DNA of 50,949 nucleotides from Corallococcus llansteffanensis (GTDB lineage: Bacteria > Myxococcota > Myxococcia > Myxococcales > Myxococcaceae), in contig NZ_RAWB01000007.1 of NCBI RefSeq assembly GCF_003612055.1, positions 1 to 50,949 on the forward strand. Reading direction: 5' to 3'. A model generated the notes under the pieces. That model was not told the origin of the DNA, made no database searches, and saw only the letters and a list, made by a program, of their open reading frames with translations. This document shows, piece after piece, positions 42,525-47,824 of the stretch. The position numbers were made by a program, and so were the translations under genes. Numbering within the stretch: position 1 is the first letter of the stretch; each line of letters opens with the position of its first letter.

Positions 42525-43289
42525 ATGGACCTGCGAATCGTGCTCGGCCTCGCGCTGATGCTGGTGTCGCCCGCCTGGAGCCAGCCGGCGGCCTCCGCGG
42601 GCCCGGACTTCCAGGCCCGGATGTCCGCCGCAGCCCACGCCTACGAGGAGCTCGACTACGAGCGCGCCCTCGAGCAGCTCGACGCGGCGAAGGCCGTGGC
42701 GCGCGACGACAGGGAGTGGGGCAGGGTGGCCACCTTCCGGGGCCTCGTGCTCGCGGACCTGGGACGCCGTCAGGAGGCACTGGACGCCTTCAAGGAAGGG
42801 CTGTCGCTGCTGCCCGATGCAAACCTTCCGGTGAAGGTGTCACCCAAGGTGTCACGCGACTTCGAGGAGGTGCGCCGGACCGTGCAGCGTGACCTGGCAC
42901 GCAGTCCCCGACCGCCCCCGGACGCCCCGCGTGCGATGACGGACGCGCCGCCCGAGCAGCCTCCGCCGCCCGCCTTCGTTCCGTCCGCGGCGCAGGCGGA
43001 GGTGCGCCCCACGCGCTCCCTGCCCGTGCTTCCGCTGGCCTTGCTGGGAGGGGGCGTGGTGCTCGGTGGCGTTGGTGGCTACCTGGGCCTCCAGTCGCGG
43101 AGCAACGTGAACGCCGCGCGCGACGATGTCTTCTACAGCGACCGGACCGCGCACCTGGACAGCGCGCGGGGCCAGTCGCTCGCGGCCAACGTCCTGCTGG
43201 GCGCGGCCGTCACCGCCGCCGCCGGAGCCGCCGTCACCTGGCTCCTCACGGACAGTCCGCCCTCGCCGCGGACGGAGGTGTCTCCATGA
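42525..43289 (+). CDS. TPR-containing membrane protein
   Basis: 254 residues. Signal peptide (ends SPAWSQ). Residues about 30-100 contain TPR-like helix pairs (AAHAYEELDYERALEQLDAA and GLVLADLGRRQEALDAFKEG). A Pro-rich linker (residues about 120-160) follows, then two hydrophobic Gly-rich segments (LLGGGVVLGGVGGYLGL and NVLLGAAVTAAAGAAVTWLL) separated by a short loop. The layout is common in myxobacterial proteins that sit beside lipoproteins. The stop codon overlaps the start of the MopE-type lipoprotein (ATGA), so the two are translationally coupled and likely work together. Confidence 0.87.
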   Translation: MDLRIVLGLALMLVSPAWSQPAASAGPDFQARMSAAAHAYEELDYERALEQLDAAKAVARDDREWGRVATFRGLVLADLGRRQEALDAFKEGLSLLPDANLPVKVSPKVSRDFEEVRRTVQRDLARSPRPPPDAPRAMTDAPPEQPPPPAFVPSAAQAEVRPTRSLPVLPLALLGGGVVLGGVGGYLGLQSRSNVNAARDDVFYSDRTAHLDSARGQSLAANVLLGAAVTAAAGAAVTWLLTDSPPSPRTEVSP

Positions 43290-44746
43290 TGCGCGCCGTG
43301 GCCGTGGGACTCGGGCTGCTCTGCATCACCTGCACGGTGCCGGACATCGAGGAGCTCGAGGAGGAGCGCCCCAGCGGGTGCGACGCGAGCCACCCCTGCC
43401 AGGTCCGGGTGCTGCTGACCTACGACGGCTTCCGTCCAGGCTGCGTCACGCTGCGACTGGTGGACGCGGCGGATGGCTCCAGGACCCTGGAGCTGCCCGT
43501 GCTTGAGGGGACGGCGGAGGTGGGGTTCATTCGCCGGTCCGGGTGGAGTGACACCGTGAAGGTGACGGCCTCCGCCTATGAGCGCTCGTGCGCGGTCCAG
43601 GAGGTGGCCACCGCGTCGGATCAGGCGGTGGTTCCCGAGGAGGGGACCGCCACCGTCGAGCTGAAGCTGAGCGCGCGGGATGAAGACGGTGATGGCTTTG
43701 TGAGCACCGGCACCCGGGGCACGGACTGTGATGACCGCTCCGTCTCCATCTCCCCGGGCGTGGCGGAGCGCTGCGACTTCCTGGACAACAACTGTGACGG
43801 CCGGGAGGATCCGGCGCCCGTCTGTGACGGCGTCGAATGGCGGACGACCGGGACGCTGACGGGCGCGAGCTTCCGGGACGTGGCTCCCCATGCGCGCAAC
43901 CAGGCCTGGCTCGTGAGCGACAGCAACGACGTGCTCGCCCACGTCCGACAGGGGACCGACGGCGGGTTCGACGTGGAGCCGTTCACCGACTGCCACGGGG
44001 CGTGGTCCACCGCGTGGGCGCGGCCGAGCGACGGGCGTGTGTTCCTGGGCTCCTGGGAGGGGCAGCTCGCCACGCGGGCGCTGGCCGCCGGGGGGCCCTG
44101 CTCGCTGACGTCCTTCGACGGGGGCGGGGCGGCCATCCAGGACCTCGTGGGCTTCGAGTCGGACGGAGGCACGACGCTCTACGCGGTGAGTGAGACCGGG
44201 GACATCCTCCGCTGGGACTACCCGGCGGAGCCGGTGCGGATGGCGCACGTGGACGCGGACCTCCGCTCCATCCACGGCCTCGACCCGAGAACGCTCATCA
44301 CCGTGGGCTCCACGGGCGAGCTGCCCGTCGCGTACCACGTCAACGCGGACGGAGGCCCGTGGCTGCGGGAGACGCTGCCGCCGCCCTCCGGAGGGCAGCT
44401 CGCCCTGCACACCGTGCATGTCGTGGCGCCGGGCCTCGCCTACGCGGCCGGAGACCAGGGGCTGTTCCTGGAGCGTGCGGCGGGCTCCTGGAGCACGAAG
44501 CCCGCGTACCCCATCTACGTGGACGGGGGCGTCTCGCCCGACATCCTCGACGTGGTGTCCTTCGGACAGGGCTCCGTCTTCGCGCGCCTGGACACGGACG
44601 ACCTTGTTCGCTTCGACGGAGAGGAGTGGAGGGACTTCCTCTTCGGCACCCAGGGCTTCACGACCCTCGAGGGGCTGTCGTCGGATGAGCTGTGGAGCGC
44701 CACGCTCGATGGGACCGGATTCCACTGGGGCCCCCGGGCCCCGTAA
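43286..44746 (+). CDS. Lipoprotein with MopE-type metal-binding motif
   Basis: 486 residues. Signal with a probable lipoprotein cysteine (LCITC). Residues about 130-180 hold DEDGDGFV, TDCDDRSVSISPGVAERCD and DNNCDGRED, the MopE/PF11617 motif (DxDGDG, DCDD, PGxxExCDxxDNxCDG) found in the copper-binding protein MopE and in many myxobacterial surface proteins. The N-terminal 125 residues form a beta-sandwich-like domain with disulfide cysteines. The remaining 300 residues look like irregular beta-propeller blades (VAPHARNQAWLVSDSNDV, DGRVFLGSWEGQL, GGTTLYAVSETGDILRWDY, GLAYAAGDQGLFLE). Overlaps the upstream TPR gene by 4 bases (ATGATG). Confidence 0.88.
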   Translation: MMRAVAVGLGLLCITCTVPDIEELEEERPSGCDASHPCQVRVLLTYDGFRPGCVTLRLVDAADGSRTLELPVLEGTAEVGFIRRSGWSDTVKVTASAYERSCAVQEVATASDQAVVPEEGTATVELKLSARDEDGDGFVSTGTRGTDCDDRSVSISPGVAERCDFLDNNCDGREDPAPVCDGVEWRTTGTLTGASFRDVAPHARNQAWLVSDSNDVLAHVRQGTDGGFDVEPFTDCHGAWSTAWARPSDGRVFLGSWEGQLATRALAAGGPCSLTSFDGGGAAIQDLVGFESDGGTTLYAVSETGDILRWDYPAEPVRMAHVDADLRSIHGLDPRTLITVGSTGELPVAYHVNADGGPWLRETLPPPSGGQLALHTVHVVAPGLAYAAGDQGLFLERAAGSWSTKPAYPIYVDGGVSPDILDVVSFGQGSVFARLDTDDLVRFDGEEWRDFLFGTQGFTTLEGLSSDELWSATLDGTGFHWGPRAP

Positions 44747-44789
44747 TGTCTTGCCATCGCGTACTCACCCCCAACCCAGGATCCCTGCC

Positions 44790-45143
44790 ATGAAGACCTC
44801 TCATTCCTTCGCCCTTATCGCTCTCTCGTGTGCCGTGTTCGGGCTTGCTGGCTGCGGCACCGACTCCGCGTCGGAGCCCTCTCCCGACACCGCCATCTCG
44901 CACGAGGGGACCACGGGACTGGTGGACCCCTCGACCGTGAACATGGATGAGCTCGTCCCGGTCGAGACCGAGAGCGGCACCGTGACCGCCTCCGCCTGTA
45001 CGAACTACTCGACCCGGTACGTGCAAAACGGCTGCTGCACCCAGACGGCCACGAAGTTCCAGCAGCAGATCTGCATCTACGGGGCCTGGTATTGGCAGAC
45101 TCCGTACAAGTGCGAGTACCCGACTTCGTACTGCCTGCCGTAG
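44790..45143 (+). CDS. Small Cys-rich lipoprotein
   Basis: 117 residues. Signal with clear lipobox FGLAGC; mature part about 95 residues with an acidic Ser/Thr linker. The last 50 residues have six cysteines (including a CC pair) with many Tyr and Trp: ACTNYSTRYVQNGCC, ICIYGAWYW, KCEYPTSYCLP. This looks like a small disulfide-stabilised domain that could bind a ligand or polymer. No family recognised. Starts 43 bp after the MopE-type lipoprotein and may be co-transcribed with it. Confidence 0.83.
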   Translation: MKTSHSFALIALSCAVFGLAGCGTDSASEPSPDTAISHEGTTGLVDPSTVNMDELVPVETESGTVTASACTNYSTRYVQNGCCTQTATKFQQQICIYGAWYWQTPYKCEYPTSYCLP

Positions 45144-45239
45144 GCGCACGTGGGTCGATGAGGGCTCGCGCGTTCTCCAGGGGCTGACGCATGATGCGCG
45201 GTCTTCCGTCTCCCAAGGGGGGCGGGGACCCTGGTGACC

Positions 45240-46619
45240 ATGAGCGACCTCCTCTCCCGTGACCTCTCCCGGCTCCCGGACCTGCTCGAGCAGGCCCGCG
45301 CGAGCGCCCTCGAGTTCCTCACCACGCTGCCCGAGCGCCCCGCGGGCATTCGGCCCGAGCCGCCCGCGCCGCTCGGGCTGCCCGACGCGGGCCTCGGCGC
45401 CGAGGACGCGCTCGCGCTCTTCCGCCGCCGCTACGAGGCCGGGCTCTCCGGCTCCGCGGGGCCGCGCTACCTCGGCTTCGTCACCGGCGGCACCACCCCC
45501 GCGGCGCTCGTGGGCGACTGGCTCGTCTCCGCGTACGACCAGAACCTGAGCAACAGCGGCGACTCGCTCGCCACCAGCGTGGAGCGCGAGGCGCTGGGAC
45601 TTCTGCGCTCCCTCTTCGGCCTGCCCGAGGACTTCGAGGGCGCCTTCGTGAGCGGCGCGACGGCGGCGAACCTCGTCTCGCTGGCCACCGCGCGGCAGTG
45701 GGCGCTGGAGCGCCTGGGCCACGACGTGAGCGAGGAGGGGCTGTGGGGGCTGCCGCGGGTCGCGGTGCTGGGCAGCGCCCCGCACGCGAGCGTGCTCAAG
45801 GCGCTCTCCATCCTCGGCATGGGGCGGCGCGCGGTGCAGGCCATCCCCAGTCTTCCGGGCCGCCCCGTCATGGATCCGAAGGCGCTCGAGGCTCGGCTCG
45901 AGGCACTCGGCGGTGCCCCGGCCATCGTGCTCGCGAGTGCGGGGGAGGTGAACACCGGGGACTTCGACGACCTCGAGGCGGTGGGGCAGTCGTGCCGCCG
46001 CCACGGGGCCTGGCTGCACGTGGACGGCGCCTTCGGCATCTTCGCGGCCTGCAGCCCGGCGCACGCGCACCTGCTGCGGGGGCTCGAGCACGCGGACTCG
46101 GTCGCGGCCGACGGGCACAAGTGGCTCAACGTCCCCTACGACTCCGGCATCGTCTTCACGCGCCACCTCGCGCGGCAGGAGAGCGTCTTCCGGGCGGTGG
46201 CCGCCTACCTTGGCAAGGGGCCGGACCTGCTGCACCGCACGCCGGAGAACTCGCGCCGCTTCCGGGCGCTGCCCGCGTGGATGACGCTCATGGCCTACGG
46301 CCGCGACGGGCACCGCGCCCTCGTCGAGCGCAGCTGCGCGCTCGCCCGCGGCCTGGGGGAGGGGCTCGCGGCGTCCCCGCACTACGAGCTGCTCGCCCCG
46401 GTGATGCTGAACATCGCCTGCTTCGCGCTGCGCTCGGGGGACGCCGCGCGGCGCGACCGCCTCCTCGCGGCGCTGCAGGCCGACGGGCGCGTACACTTCA
46501 CCCCCACGCAGTACGCCGACCGCCCCGGCCTGCGCGCGGCCTTCTCCAACTGGCGCACGGCGGAGGCGGACCTCCCCGTCATCCTCGCGGCGCTGGAGGC
46601 CGCGGCCTCCAGGGTCTAG
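45240..46619 (+). CDS. PLP-dependent decarboxylase (group II / DDC-like)
   Basis: 459 residues. Fold-type I PLP enzyme: the PLP lysine is Lys294 in VAADGHKWLN, the ring-stacking His is in SAPHASVLKAL, the Asp contacting the pyridine nitrogen is in WLHVDGAFG, and the N-terminal domain has PRYLGFVTGGTTPAA, seen in the aromatic/glutamate/diaminobutyrate decarboxylase group. A substrate such as an aromatic amino acid, glutamate or 2,4-diaminobutyrate cannot be chosen from sequence alone. ATG 45240 is preferred; an in-frame GTG lies two codons upstream. Convergent with the ferritin-like gene; a hairpin at 46632-46666 separates them. Confidence 0.92.
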   Translation: MSDLLSRDLSRLPDLLEQARASALEFLTTLPERPAGIRPEPPAPLGLPDAGLGAEDALALFRRRYEAGLSGSAGPRYLGFVTGGTTPAALVGDWLVSAYDQNLSNSGDSLATSVEREALGLLRSLFGLPEDFEGAFVSGATAANLVSLATARQWALERLGHDVSEEGLWGLPRVAVLGSAPHASVLKALSILGMGRRAVQAIPSLPGRPVMDPKALEARLEALGGAPAIVLASAGEVNTGDFDDLEAVGQSCRRHGAWLHVDGAFGIFAACSPAHAHLLRGLEHADSVAADGHKWLNVPYDSGIVFTRHLARQESVFRAVAAYLGKGPDLLHRTPENSRRFRALPAWMTLMAYGRDGHRALVERSCALARGLGEGLAASPHYELLAPVMLNIACFALRSGDAARRDRLLAALQADGRVHFTPTQYADRPGLRAAFSNWRTAEADLPVILAALEAAASRV

Positions 46620-46693: not shown

Positions 46694-47524
46694 TCAGGGG
46701 ACGCGGATGCCGTGGCGCAGGAGCGGCGCCTTCACCTGGGCCTCCACGGTTTCGTGGGTCACCGCGATGTAGTCCTGGGACTCCATCCAGCCCAGCGCGT
46801 TCACGTGCTCCAGGAGGAAGCCCTCGCGCGTGACGCCGTCCTTCGTGGTGCTGCGAAGCTTCTCCCAGAGCGGCGCCTGGGCATCCAGCGTCTGCCGGGC
46901 GATGCGCCCCAGCCGCTCCTTCTCCGCGGGCCCCAGCTCCGGGGCAATCCAATCCAGATACAGGTACCCGAGCCGCCCGTGCAGGGCCTCCTCCTGCACG
47001 AGCGTCGTGAGCACGGCCCGCGTCAGGGGATGCGTCGTCGCGCGCAGGCAGCCTGACAGCAGCGCGAAGGAAAGCGTCTCCCCCACGCAGCACTCCCGGA
47101 CGATGAGCTCGTTGGCGCGCTGGAGGAAGGTGAGCGACGGGTCGAACGCCACGGCGAAGGCCCCTGGGTCGTACGTGAGCGGGGTGCCTCCGCCCAGGCT
47201 CATCGCCATCCGTGCGCACAGCTCCACATGGTGGATCTCCTCCGCGGGAAAACGCGCCGCGAGGCTCCACAGGTCCAGCGGGACGCGCGCTTCGCCCAGC
47301 ACCTGCACGAGCTGCCCCATGACCGTGGCGCTTCCGAACTCGTTGAGCGCGCGCAGGGTCCAGGAGTGCCGGGCCCGCTCCACGAGCAGCGGCGGGTAGC
47401 AGGACGGATCCATCGAGTCCCAGGGATAGCGCTGGGCGATGTCCCCCGTGGCCCGCTCGTGCAGGGTCAGCGCTGGGCCGTCCGTCAGGTCGATTTCAAA
47501 GAGTTCGGAGGTCATGGCTCGCAT
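46694..47524 (-). CDS. Ferritin-like superfamily protein (probable di-metal)
   Basis: 276 residues, all helical, no signal peptide. Two ExxH motifs typical of di-metal carboxylate four-helix bundles are visible: EEIHHVELC near residue 95 and VQEEALHGRLG near residue 185; additional glutamates in LNEFGSA (helix 1) and IVRECCVGE (helix 3) complete the expected E, ExxH, E, ExxH order. This is the layout of ferritin-like di-iron oxygenases or oxidases. The substrate is unknown. The start ATG at 47524 follows the stop of the Asp-rich lipoprotein gene by 3 bases; ATG 47515 is an alternative. Together the two form a two-gene operon, so the small protein is a plausible partner or substrate. Confidence 0.82.
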   Translation of the reverse strand: MRAMTSELFEIDLTDGPALTLHERATGDIAQRYPWDSMDPSCYPPLLVERARHSWTLRALNEFGSATVMGQLVQVLGEARVPLDLWSLAARFPAEEIHHVELCARMAMSLGGGTPLTYDPGAFAVAFDPSLTFLQRANELIVRECCVGETLSFALLSGCLRATTHPLTRAVLTTLVQEEALHGRLGYLYLDWIAPELGPAEKERLGRIARQTLDAQAPLWEKLRSTTKDGVTREGFLLEHVNALGWMESQDYIAVTHETVEAQVKAPLLRHGIRVP

Positions 47525-47527
47525 GCC

Positions 47528-47824
47528 CTACGGCACCAGGATGGACCCGGCATCCGCCCCGGCGTCGGGGCCCGCGTCGGAGGGCTTGTCCCGGTCCTCG
47601 TTCGTGCCGTTGCTCGGGTCACAATCGTCGTCGTAGAAGCCACCGTCGTAGATGCAGGGCGCCGGGTTGGTGGTCATGAAGGGGTCGCATGCGGCCATCG
47701 ACAGGGCCGCGCCGGCCGCGGAGGCGGCCAGGAGCACCCGTCCCCTGCGGCGGCGCTCCGGCGCTGCGGGCTCGGACGGCATGGGAGGAGACGACGGGGC
47801 GTGCTTCGGGGGGAGATCGCTCAT
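47528..47824 (-). CDS. Small Asp/Gly-rich lipoprotein with Tat-like signal
   Basis: 98 residues. The N-terminal 27 residues are hydrophilic (Pro/Ala/Glu), then RRRRGRVLLAASAAGAALSM and a lipoprotein cysteine (MAAC), which resembles a twin-arginine type lipoprotein signal. The mature part is about 50 residues long with Cys in PAPCIYDGG and DDDCDPSN, then Asp-rich (DKPSDAGPDAGADAG). No family recognised. Followed after 3 bases by the ferritin-like gene. A short acidic, metal-binding-looking tail next to a di-metal protein invites a metal-donor or substrate hypothesis. Confidence 0.78.
   Translation of the reverse strand: MSDLPPKHAPSSPPMPSEPAAPERRRRGRVLLAASAAGAALSMAACDPFMTTNPAPCIYDGGFYDDDCDPSNGTNEDRDKPSDAGPDAGADAGSILVP

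Follow-up and report, generated by a model that had tools for sequence, protein, structure and literature searches.

The known characterised relatives of AurF act on small molecules. AurF (Pfam PF11583), the R2-like ligand-binding oxidase (R2lox), the aldehyde-deformylating oxygenase and VlmB share with the enzyme described here the same fold and an E, ExxH, E, ExxH set of ligand-type residues, but the present enzyme differs from AurF in having a dedicated peptide-like partner encoded next door. It also resembles Ferritin_2 (PF13668) in its ferritin-like helical bundle, and one outer-ring relative (L113) gives a weak match to that profile (17.4 bits versus 24.7); unlike Ferritin_2, the ferritin-like protein has here no evident signal, and it is the partner that bears one.

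The organization of the locus recalls RiPP pathways, since a short precursor gene is conserved beside a candidate modifying enzyme, and the precursor has a conserved leader and a conserved, often repeated core motif. It departs from them in that the leader is an export signal with a lipobox, the candidate enzyme is AurF/ferritin-like, and neither a protease nor a transporter appears among the 14 flank clusters listed. By sequence and model evidence, the system would work like a RiPP pathway, which is a likeness and not an identification. The linaridin RiPP cluster of corynaridin is reported to contain an HTTM membrane protein as putative maturation protein (PMC9927463), and an HTTM protein is also found in the wider loci described here. 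A report on the SdpABC and YitPOM systems likewise describes a signal-bearing precursor that is encoded with maturation partners (PMC6818787); the present loci differ from these systems by a soluble diiron-type enzyme and by the presence of a lipobox. In a search covering mostly open-access papers we found neither a paper linking AurF/ferritin-like enzymes to precursor peptides or to the term 'ribosomally synthesized', nor the trio of enzyme, partner and HTTM protein.

The gene pair and its candidate diiron enzyme

The window, i.e., the whole stretch of 50,949 nucleotides from Corallococcus llansteffanensis that was analysed, carries on its minus strand a 98-aa ORF (47824-47528) followed by a 276-aa ORF (47524-46694), and the ORF coordinates confirm the spacing of 3 bases from stop to start given in the initial annotation. 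The flanking ORFs are on the plus strand, and thus the pair stands alone in the window; the one at 45234-46619 we take to be a PLP-type decarboxylase, and the one beyond 48.2 kb is presumably an RCC1-like repeat protein (both labelled by eye). The features of the pair are the following:

47528..47824, minus strand: small exported lipoprotein-type partner, candidate substrate or precursor, 98 aa (ORF; found before the enzyme in L002-L008 too)
47687..47752, minus strand: basic-hydrophobic signal with [RK]-x-L-L and lipobox-like AAC (Cys46) (partner alignment)
47654..47674, minus strand: TTNPAPC, residues 51-57, with Asn53, counterpart of GNLxPP in other lineages (pN/pS and alignment)
46694..47524, minus strand: AurF/ferritin-like candidate diiron oxygenase, 276 aa, no signal by eye (Pfam, model, structure comparison)
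47339..47341, minus strand: Glu62, first predicted metal ligand (invariant in 47 rows; helix 45-78 of the model)
47228..47239, minus strand: Glu96-x-x-His99, predicted metal ligands (invariant in 47 rows; helix 92-109)
47078..47080, minus strand: Glu149, predicted metal ligand (invariant in 47 rows; helix 133-162)
46979..46990, minus strand: Glu179-x-x-His182, predicted metal ligands (invariant in 47 rows; helix 166-196)

The small protein shows ERRRRGR, a hydrophobic stretch, SMAAC with Cys46, the further cysteines C57 and C68 and an Asp/Ala/Gly tail; the RR-containing basic n-region, the lipoprotein-type cysteine, the two additional cysteines and the Asp-rich tail described initially are all present in the sequence. 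Both ExxH motifs attributed to the larger protein (E96-H99 and E179-H182) are found at conserved positions, and a signal is absent by eye. Elsewhere in the window, a plus-strand ORF (43286-44746) encodes a lipoprotein-like product with a DEDGDGF...DCDD...DNNCDG stretch resembling MopE-type metal-binding repeats, directly followed by an ORF for a small Cys-rich lipoprotein-like product (~44778-45143), both as judged by eye.

Against the Pfam AurF profile (PF11583), the enzyme of the window scores 21.4 bits (E 1.6e-4), below the curated cut-off of 29.6, and it is thus not assigned to that family. The same profile matches 29 of the 47 family members compared below at E <= 0.1 (best E 1.3e-5), and the outer-ring relative L111 passes the cut-off with 32 bits. 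NCBIfam gave zero matches for the window enzyme; over the 47 members, its matches were isolated ones to single members, with E 0.02 at best. The best match of the enzyme in a PDB sequence search was to tRNA hydroxylase chains (E 0.05).

The residues E62, E96, H99, E149, E179 and H182, which form the E, ExxH, E, ExxH set, are invariant in 47/47 aligned members, and in the AlphaFold2 model of the enzyme (pLDDT 92.5, pTM 0.90) these six predicted ligands sit on four separate long helices. Model and alignment together give a four-helix bundle with one element of the set per helix, i.e., the fold of a diiron-carboxylate oxidase. Foldseek against the PDB returned a single match at E <= 0.001, the phenylacetyl-CoA monooxygenase PaaA. 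When VIA-align was applied to the chains ranked highest by Foldseek, the 50 rows listed had Z values of 15.8-17.4 over 193-237 residues, among them R2lox (Z 17.4, 237 residues, 3.6 A), aldehyde-deformylating oxygenase (17.2), methane monooxygenase hydroxylase (16.7), the azoxy synthase VlmB (16.4) and PaaA (16.1). These values are tied or close across several chemistries, and thus the reaction is not fixed by the fold. The diiron-oxidase-type fold and the invariant ligand-type set agree with the earlier description of this protein as a di-metal oxygenase-type partner, metal binding being a prediction, and a catalytic oxidase centre appears more likely than iron storage. Within the window's clade, the pN/pS of the enzyme is 0.16 (14 orthologues, all pairs counted without correction).

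Conservation of the pair and of an Asn motif in the partner

A first search of 39 genomes gave 20 with some match to the enzyme and eight with a full-length match at 83% identity or more, i.e., the window's own genome and seven of the same genus, the closest named relative being Corallococcus terminator (93% over the enzyme). The small gene lies directly upstream in 7/7 of the same-genus full-length orthologues (L002-L008, 83-93%), and it is therefore kept in 8/8 when the genome of the window is included. A remnant was also observed in the same-genus genome G009, where only the last 29 residues of the enzyme (93%) are left, in one frame with an apparent small-gene start (L017, G009:C673, first 265 bases of the reversed locus); by eye, one deletion apparently took most of both genes there.

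The wider set comprised 48 loci from the genome collection, 47 of which were used (L056-L102), L103 with its 38-residue match being left out. A signal-plus-motif profile found the partner in 41/47 loci, and directly upstream, i.e., on the same strand at -30 to +100 nt, in 39/47, with a median gap of 13 nt; this profile contains the motif, and both adjacency counts depend on it. The small protein of the window matches the profile with E 2.3e-14 in its own genome (G000), its own row being included in the profile. Six loci gave no match (L065, L084, L091, L094, L098 and L101). The upstream ORF has a signal but not the motif in L065, L091, L094 and L098, L101 is an enzyme fragment, and in the L084 genome a partner carrying SSGNLVAPA is located past the HTTM gene, at a distance of 4.8 kb from the enzyme. 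An unrelated minus-strand ORF (L084:2909-3919; transposase/nuclease-like by eye) occupies the expected partner place in that locus.

Pair and motif persist where the identity of the enzyme to that of the window is only 29-45%. The pairing is above chance and widely conserved in myxobacteria, which contradicts the possibility, considered in the initial annotation, that the two genes would not be kept together. The loci and partners share descent (14 of them are in the window's clade), and thus the counts do not represent independent events.

Two or three partner genes per enzyme are found in 11/47 loci, and in the L096 genome three partners stand in tandem before the enzyme. Such a surplus suggests that the partner is a client or substrate and not a fixed subunit. 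The profile was also run on 20 genomes chosen for having the enzyme and, because its rows were drawn from the same loci, this search tests where else partners occur and not whether they occur here. Up to 150 candidates were scored in each genome, and at least 29 matched at E <= 2.1e-6. Among the matches listed, the enzyme is within ~1.5 kb of 25, shares a contig with L157 and L162 at distances of 3.6 and 4.8 kb, and is missing within 1.5 kb of L166, which adjoins an HTTM gene; L152 is cut by the end of its contig. The weaker matches listed are six (E 0.001 to 0.008), including L172, a partner-like ORF beside an enzyme paralogue, and L173, from the window's own genome, in which the motif is absent in the stretch shown.

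The motif follows the signal and reads [GA]N-L-x-[AP]-P in most lineages and TTNPAPC in the window's clade, and it is often repeated. When partners were chosen solely for their position and a signal-like stretch (50 proteins), 33 had N[LP]x0-1[AP]P and 29 had [GA]NLx[AP], and 45 contained the loose form [GATS]N[LP]. Five partners missed by the automatic rule (L034, L042, L071, L072 and L080) were added by eye and, since these carry the motif, the counts without them are given too; with them, the first two patterns occur in 38/55 and 33/55, respectively, and in 1000 shuffles of the 55 partners the first pattern averaged 2.3 (maximum 7) and the second 0.5 (maximum 4). The automatic choice in L076, a TPR-like protein, was excluded from the partners, and proteins from L063 (two) and L076 entered the free-Asn motif scan only. 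When the Asn position was left free in that scan, it was occupied by Asn in 53/53 matches, coming from 28 of the 58 proteins searched, and the partner alignment has Asn in 28/28 rows. The 54 profile-matched partner genes carry one (20 genes), two (20), three (7), four (3), five (3) or no (1) copies of [GATS]N[LP]; the profile includes the motif, and so the resulting 53/54 is circular and not evidence.

The scaffolds that carry the motif vary by eye. Some have short tails, L070 and L087 have a longer domain-like stretch between two copies, and L096 has one before both copies. The partners of L048 and L097 are without N[LP], the former having a Ser/Thr-rich stretch devoid of the motif.

The motif is under selection in the window's clade, where the pN/pS of TTNPAPC is 0.023 versus 0.59 for the n-region and 0.60 for the tail (14 orthologues; uncorrected, all pairs). 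The conserved element of the small protein is the TTNPAPC block, or its GNLxPP equivalents, and not the RR or the Asp tail. For the metal-loading of the small protein suggested initially no evidence was found in this comparison, the acidic tail and the n-region being its least constrained segments. The extra cysteines were also considered as the key feature and rejected: the window's clade retains them, but they are absent from many GNLxPP partners.

The leader is unusually uniform for a signal peptide, with [RK]-x-L-L in 27/28 rows and fixed-place Ala, Gly and Ala in 25, 20 and 20 of them, respectively; the rows were selected by a pattern (basic residue, L-L/L-I, [AGS]C), and thus the Leu pair and the Cys partly reflect selection. 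Perhaps this leader doubles as an enzyme-binding element. By pattern, a lipobox-like [AGS]C is present in 49/55 partners, and the AAC of the window protein makes it a predicted lipoprotein. The six misses have no Cys at that place (L043, L053), a Cys after N or R (L052, L075) or a shorter stretch (L065, L087). The Tat-like export proposed for the small protein was not borne out: RRx-phi-phi occurs in 3/55 partners (L071, L075, L090) and is absent from the window's own, and the looser [RK][RK]x-phi-phi occurs in 13/55. On the count of 3/55 we discard Tat export, or hitchhiking on it, as a general rule. The sequences suggest export with lipidation, for which Sec would be likelier than Tat.

HTTM neighbours and distant relatives of the enzyme

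A divergent HTTM-domain protein is encoded in 22/47 loci, within 100 nt in 13 of them, and is absent from the other 25 within flanks of at most 4 kb. Three of these neighbours were compared with the Pfam HTTM cut-off (27.7 bits), and that of L083 is over it (42 bits) and those of L084 (25.1) and L089 (17.8) are under it; NCBIfam gave no match for four HTTM neighbours. This subfamily is linked to the enzyme: with the L083 protein as query, 195 genomes of the window's phylum gave matches in nine, eight of which (8/9) have it beside the core enzyme, and the exception, G016, is the weakest match (75.7 bits). Conversely, among the 31 genomes with a core enzyme above 230 bits, the subfamily stands beside the enzyme in eight and is missing from 23.

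In the genus of the window the same query (E <= 1e-20) found the subfamily in 0/16 genomes, including the window's own, and no HTTM protein was detected in the window with the L084 query (E <= 1e-4), so that an SDP-like placement of HTTM beside the precursor is not seen here. A single HTTM gene of the ordinary kind is present at another place in the window's genome (G000:C519). Among the control genomes, that of B. subtilis matches HTTM.

A quick tree of 61 enzymes, in which several long branches make the deep joins unsure, placed the window's enzyme in a clade of 15 rows (SH-aLRT 99). The NP-type motif is found in 14 of these rows and none in L065; ten of the 14 are labelled, and L057, L058, L060 and L062 share the partner sequences of L042, L037, L039 and L052. 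In thirteen rows of the clade no HTTM was found within flanks of 1.5 to 4 kb, and two are unscored. The other 46 rows are mostly NL-type, many of them with HTTM neighbours, and the switch between NL and NP requires at least three changes on the tree.

A wider ring of 48 further loci contains mostly distant enzymes (of the enzyme frames at 60-253 bits, 40 were hand-picked). An Asn-Pro repeat protein lies within ~1 kb of the enzyme in 10/48 of them, with the following repeats:

VNPAP: L014, L113 and L115
Other Asn-Pro repeats: NPMPNP in L023, NPNMNPP in L111, NPLPEP in L112 and LNAP in L120
Further Asn-Pro repeats: VNSPP in L109, VTNPPPP in L116 and VTNPAPEDYDEDG in L108

The ORFs with at least five copies in 70 residues are six among these 48 loci, all directly upstream of the enzyme; six other loci have 3-4 copies in seemingly unrelated ORFs, and 32 loci have none of note. 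Some of the wider-ring partners are without an evident signal, which fits modification or docking better than enzyme export. The L108 protein (L108:567-1532), beside an outer-ring enzyme, combines its VTNPAPEDYDEDG copies with putative metal-binding repeats of the MopE type (Pfam PF11617, E 8.5e-24). Ferritin-like domains also occur as fusions in L020, L026 and L027, where a lipoprotein-type signal and a spacer precede them; L027 belongs to the genome of the window itself (G000:C774).

A proposed modification pathway and its alternatives

On balance, we lean slightly towards a minimal RiPP-like protein-modification system, in which the oxygenase would modify the Asn motif before export. The small protein would be the precursor, made of a signal/leader ([RK]xLLxAxxGxA...C) and at least one short Asn motif, which is TTNPAPC in the window and [GA]NLx[AP]P in other lineages. 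In the cytosol, the AurF/ferritin-like protein would bind a dimetal centre, recognise leader and motif, and oxidise a motif residue prior to export, the likeliest targets being the invariant Asn and the Leu or Pro next to it. The modified precursor would then be exported, probably via Sec, and receive its lipid. In many of the wider loci the maturation would also involve a dedicated HTTM membrane protein, and the window's clade would manage without it.

The conservation of the motif would equally fit a docking site, by which the enzyme would be carried or tethered with the lipoprotein, through hitchhiker export or at the membrane, and would act on some other substrate. This reading is unlikely in our opinion, although a short motif in repeated copies on differing scaffolds suits binding, and the related ferritin-like domains that follow a lipoprotein-type signal within one fused protein (L020, L026, L027) indicate that an exported form exists. 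Hitchhiking needs Tat, and the twin-arginine pattern is found in only 3/55 partners; moreover, an export of the enzyme is required neither by the several partner genes per enzyme (11/47 loci) nor by the repeat partners without evident signal near distant relatives (L023, L111 and L113; by eye).

More doubtful still is that the partner would be the precursor of a secreted bioactive peptide, a bacteriocin or a signal, in the manner of SdpC and SdpAB, with the oxidation as one making step. SdpB is an HTTM protein, and the HTTM neighbour in 22/47 loci speaks for such a precursor, but no immunity-type gene is found among the 14 flank clusters listed, the lipobox in 49/55 partners suggests membrane retention, and the window's genus is without the HTTM subfamily at E <= 1e-20. 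According to the report cited above, the SDP and YIT operons make secreted toxins from signal-bearing precursors with the help of partner proteins (PMC6818787). Finally, that two unrelated housekeeping genes would be chance neighbours in Corallococcus is highly improbable since, even if the small protein, with its DAG-type tail, resembles ordinary lipoproteins, pair and motif persist at 29-45% enzyme identity and the profile matches cluster at the enzyme.

If the modification pathway proposed above is true, it would assign peptide substrates, with a first substrate motif, to a branch of the AurF/ferritin-like superfamily that has no name, and would provide a compact two-gene system in which to test the oxygen-dependent modification of a bacterial lipoprotein, as well as an HTTM subfamily with a defined partner for testing its role. 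More broadly, we consider it possible, rather than probable, that the myxobacterial AurF-like diiron oxidases form an unrecognised peptide/protein-modifying class that targets an invariant Asn in proline-flanked motifs, each lineage having its cognate exported or repeat precursor, with HTTM in nearly half of the 47 core loci. The motifs of such a class would be GNLxPP and TTNPAP and, outside the core family, VNPAP, NPLPEP, VNSPP and VTNPPPP.

Other small proteins were seen upstream of ferritin-like relatives. In L016, L138, L142 and L143, small lipoproteins with a GGGxxGW-type C-terminus stand before the ferritin-like paralogue, and a separate branch (L025, L123) has one or two Cys-rich lipoproteins upstream that end in GPLPPPDLP or GPLNPPNLP. 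In yet another branch (L126, L128, L129, L130, L134 and L136) the upstream small protein ends in DALWG plus a Lys-rich tail and has no obvious signal.
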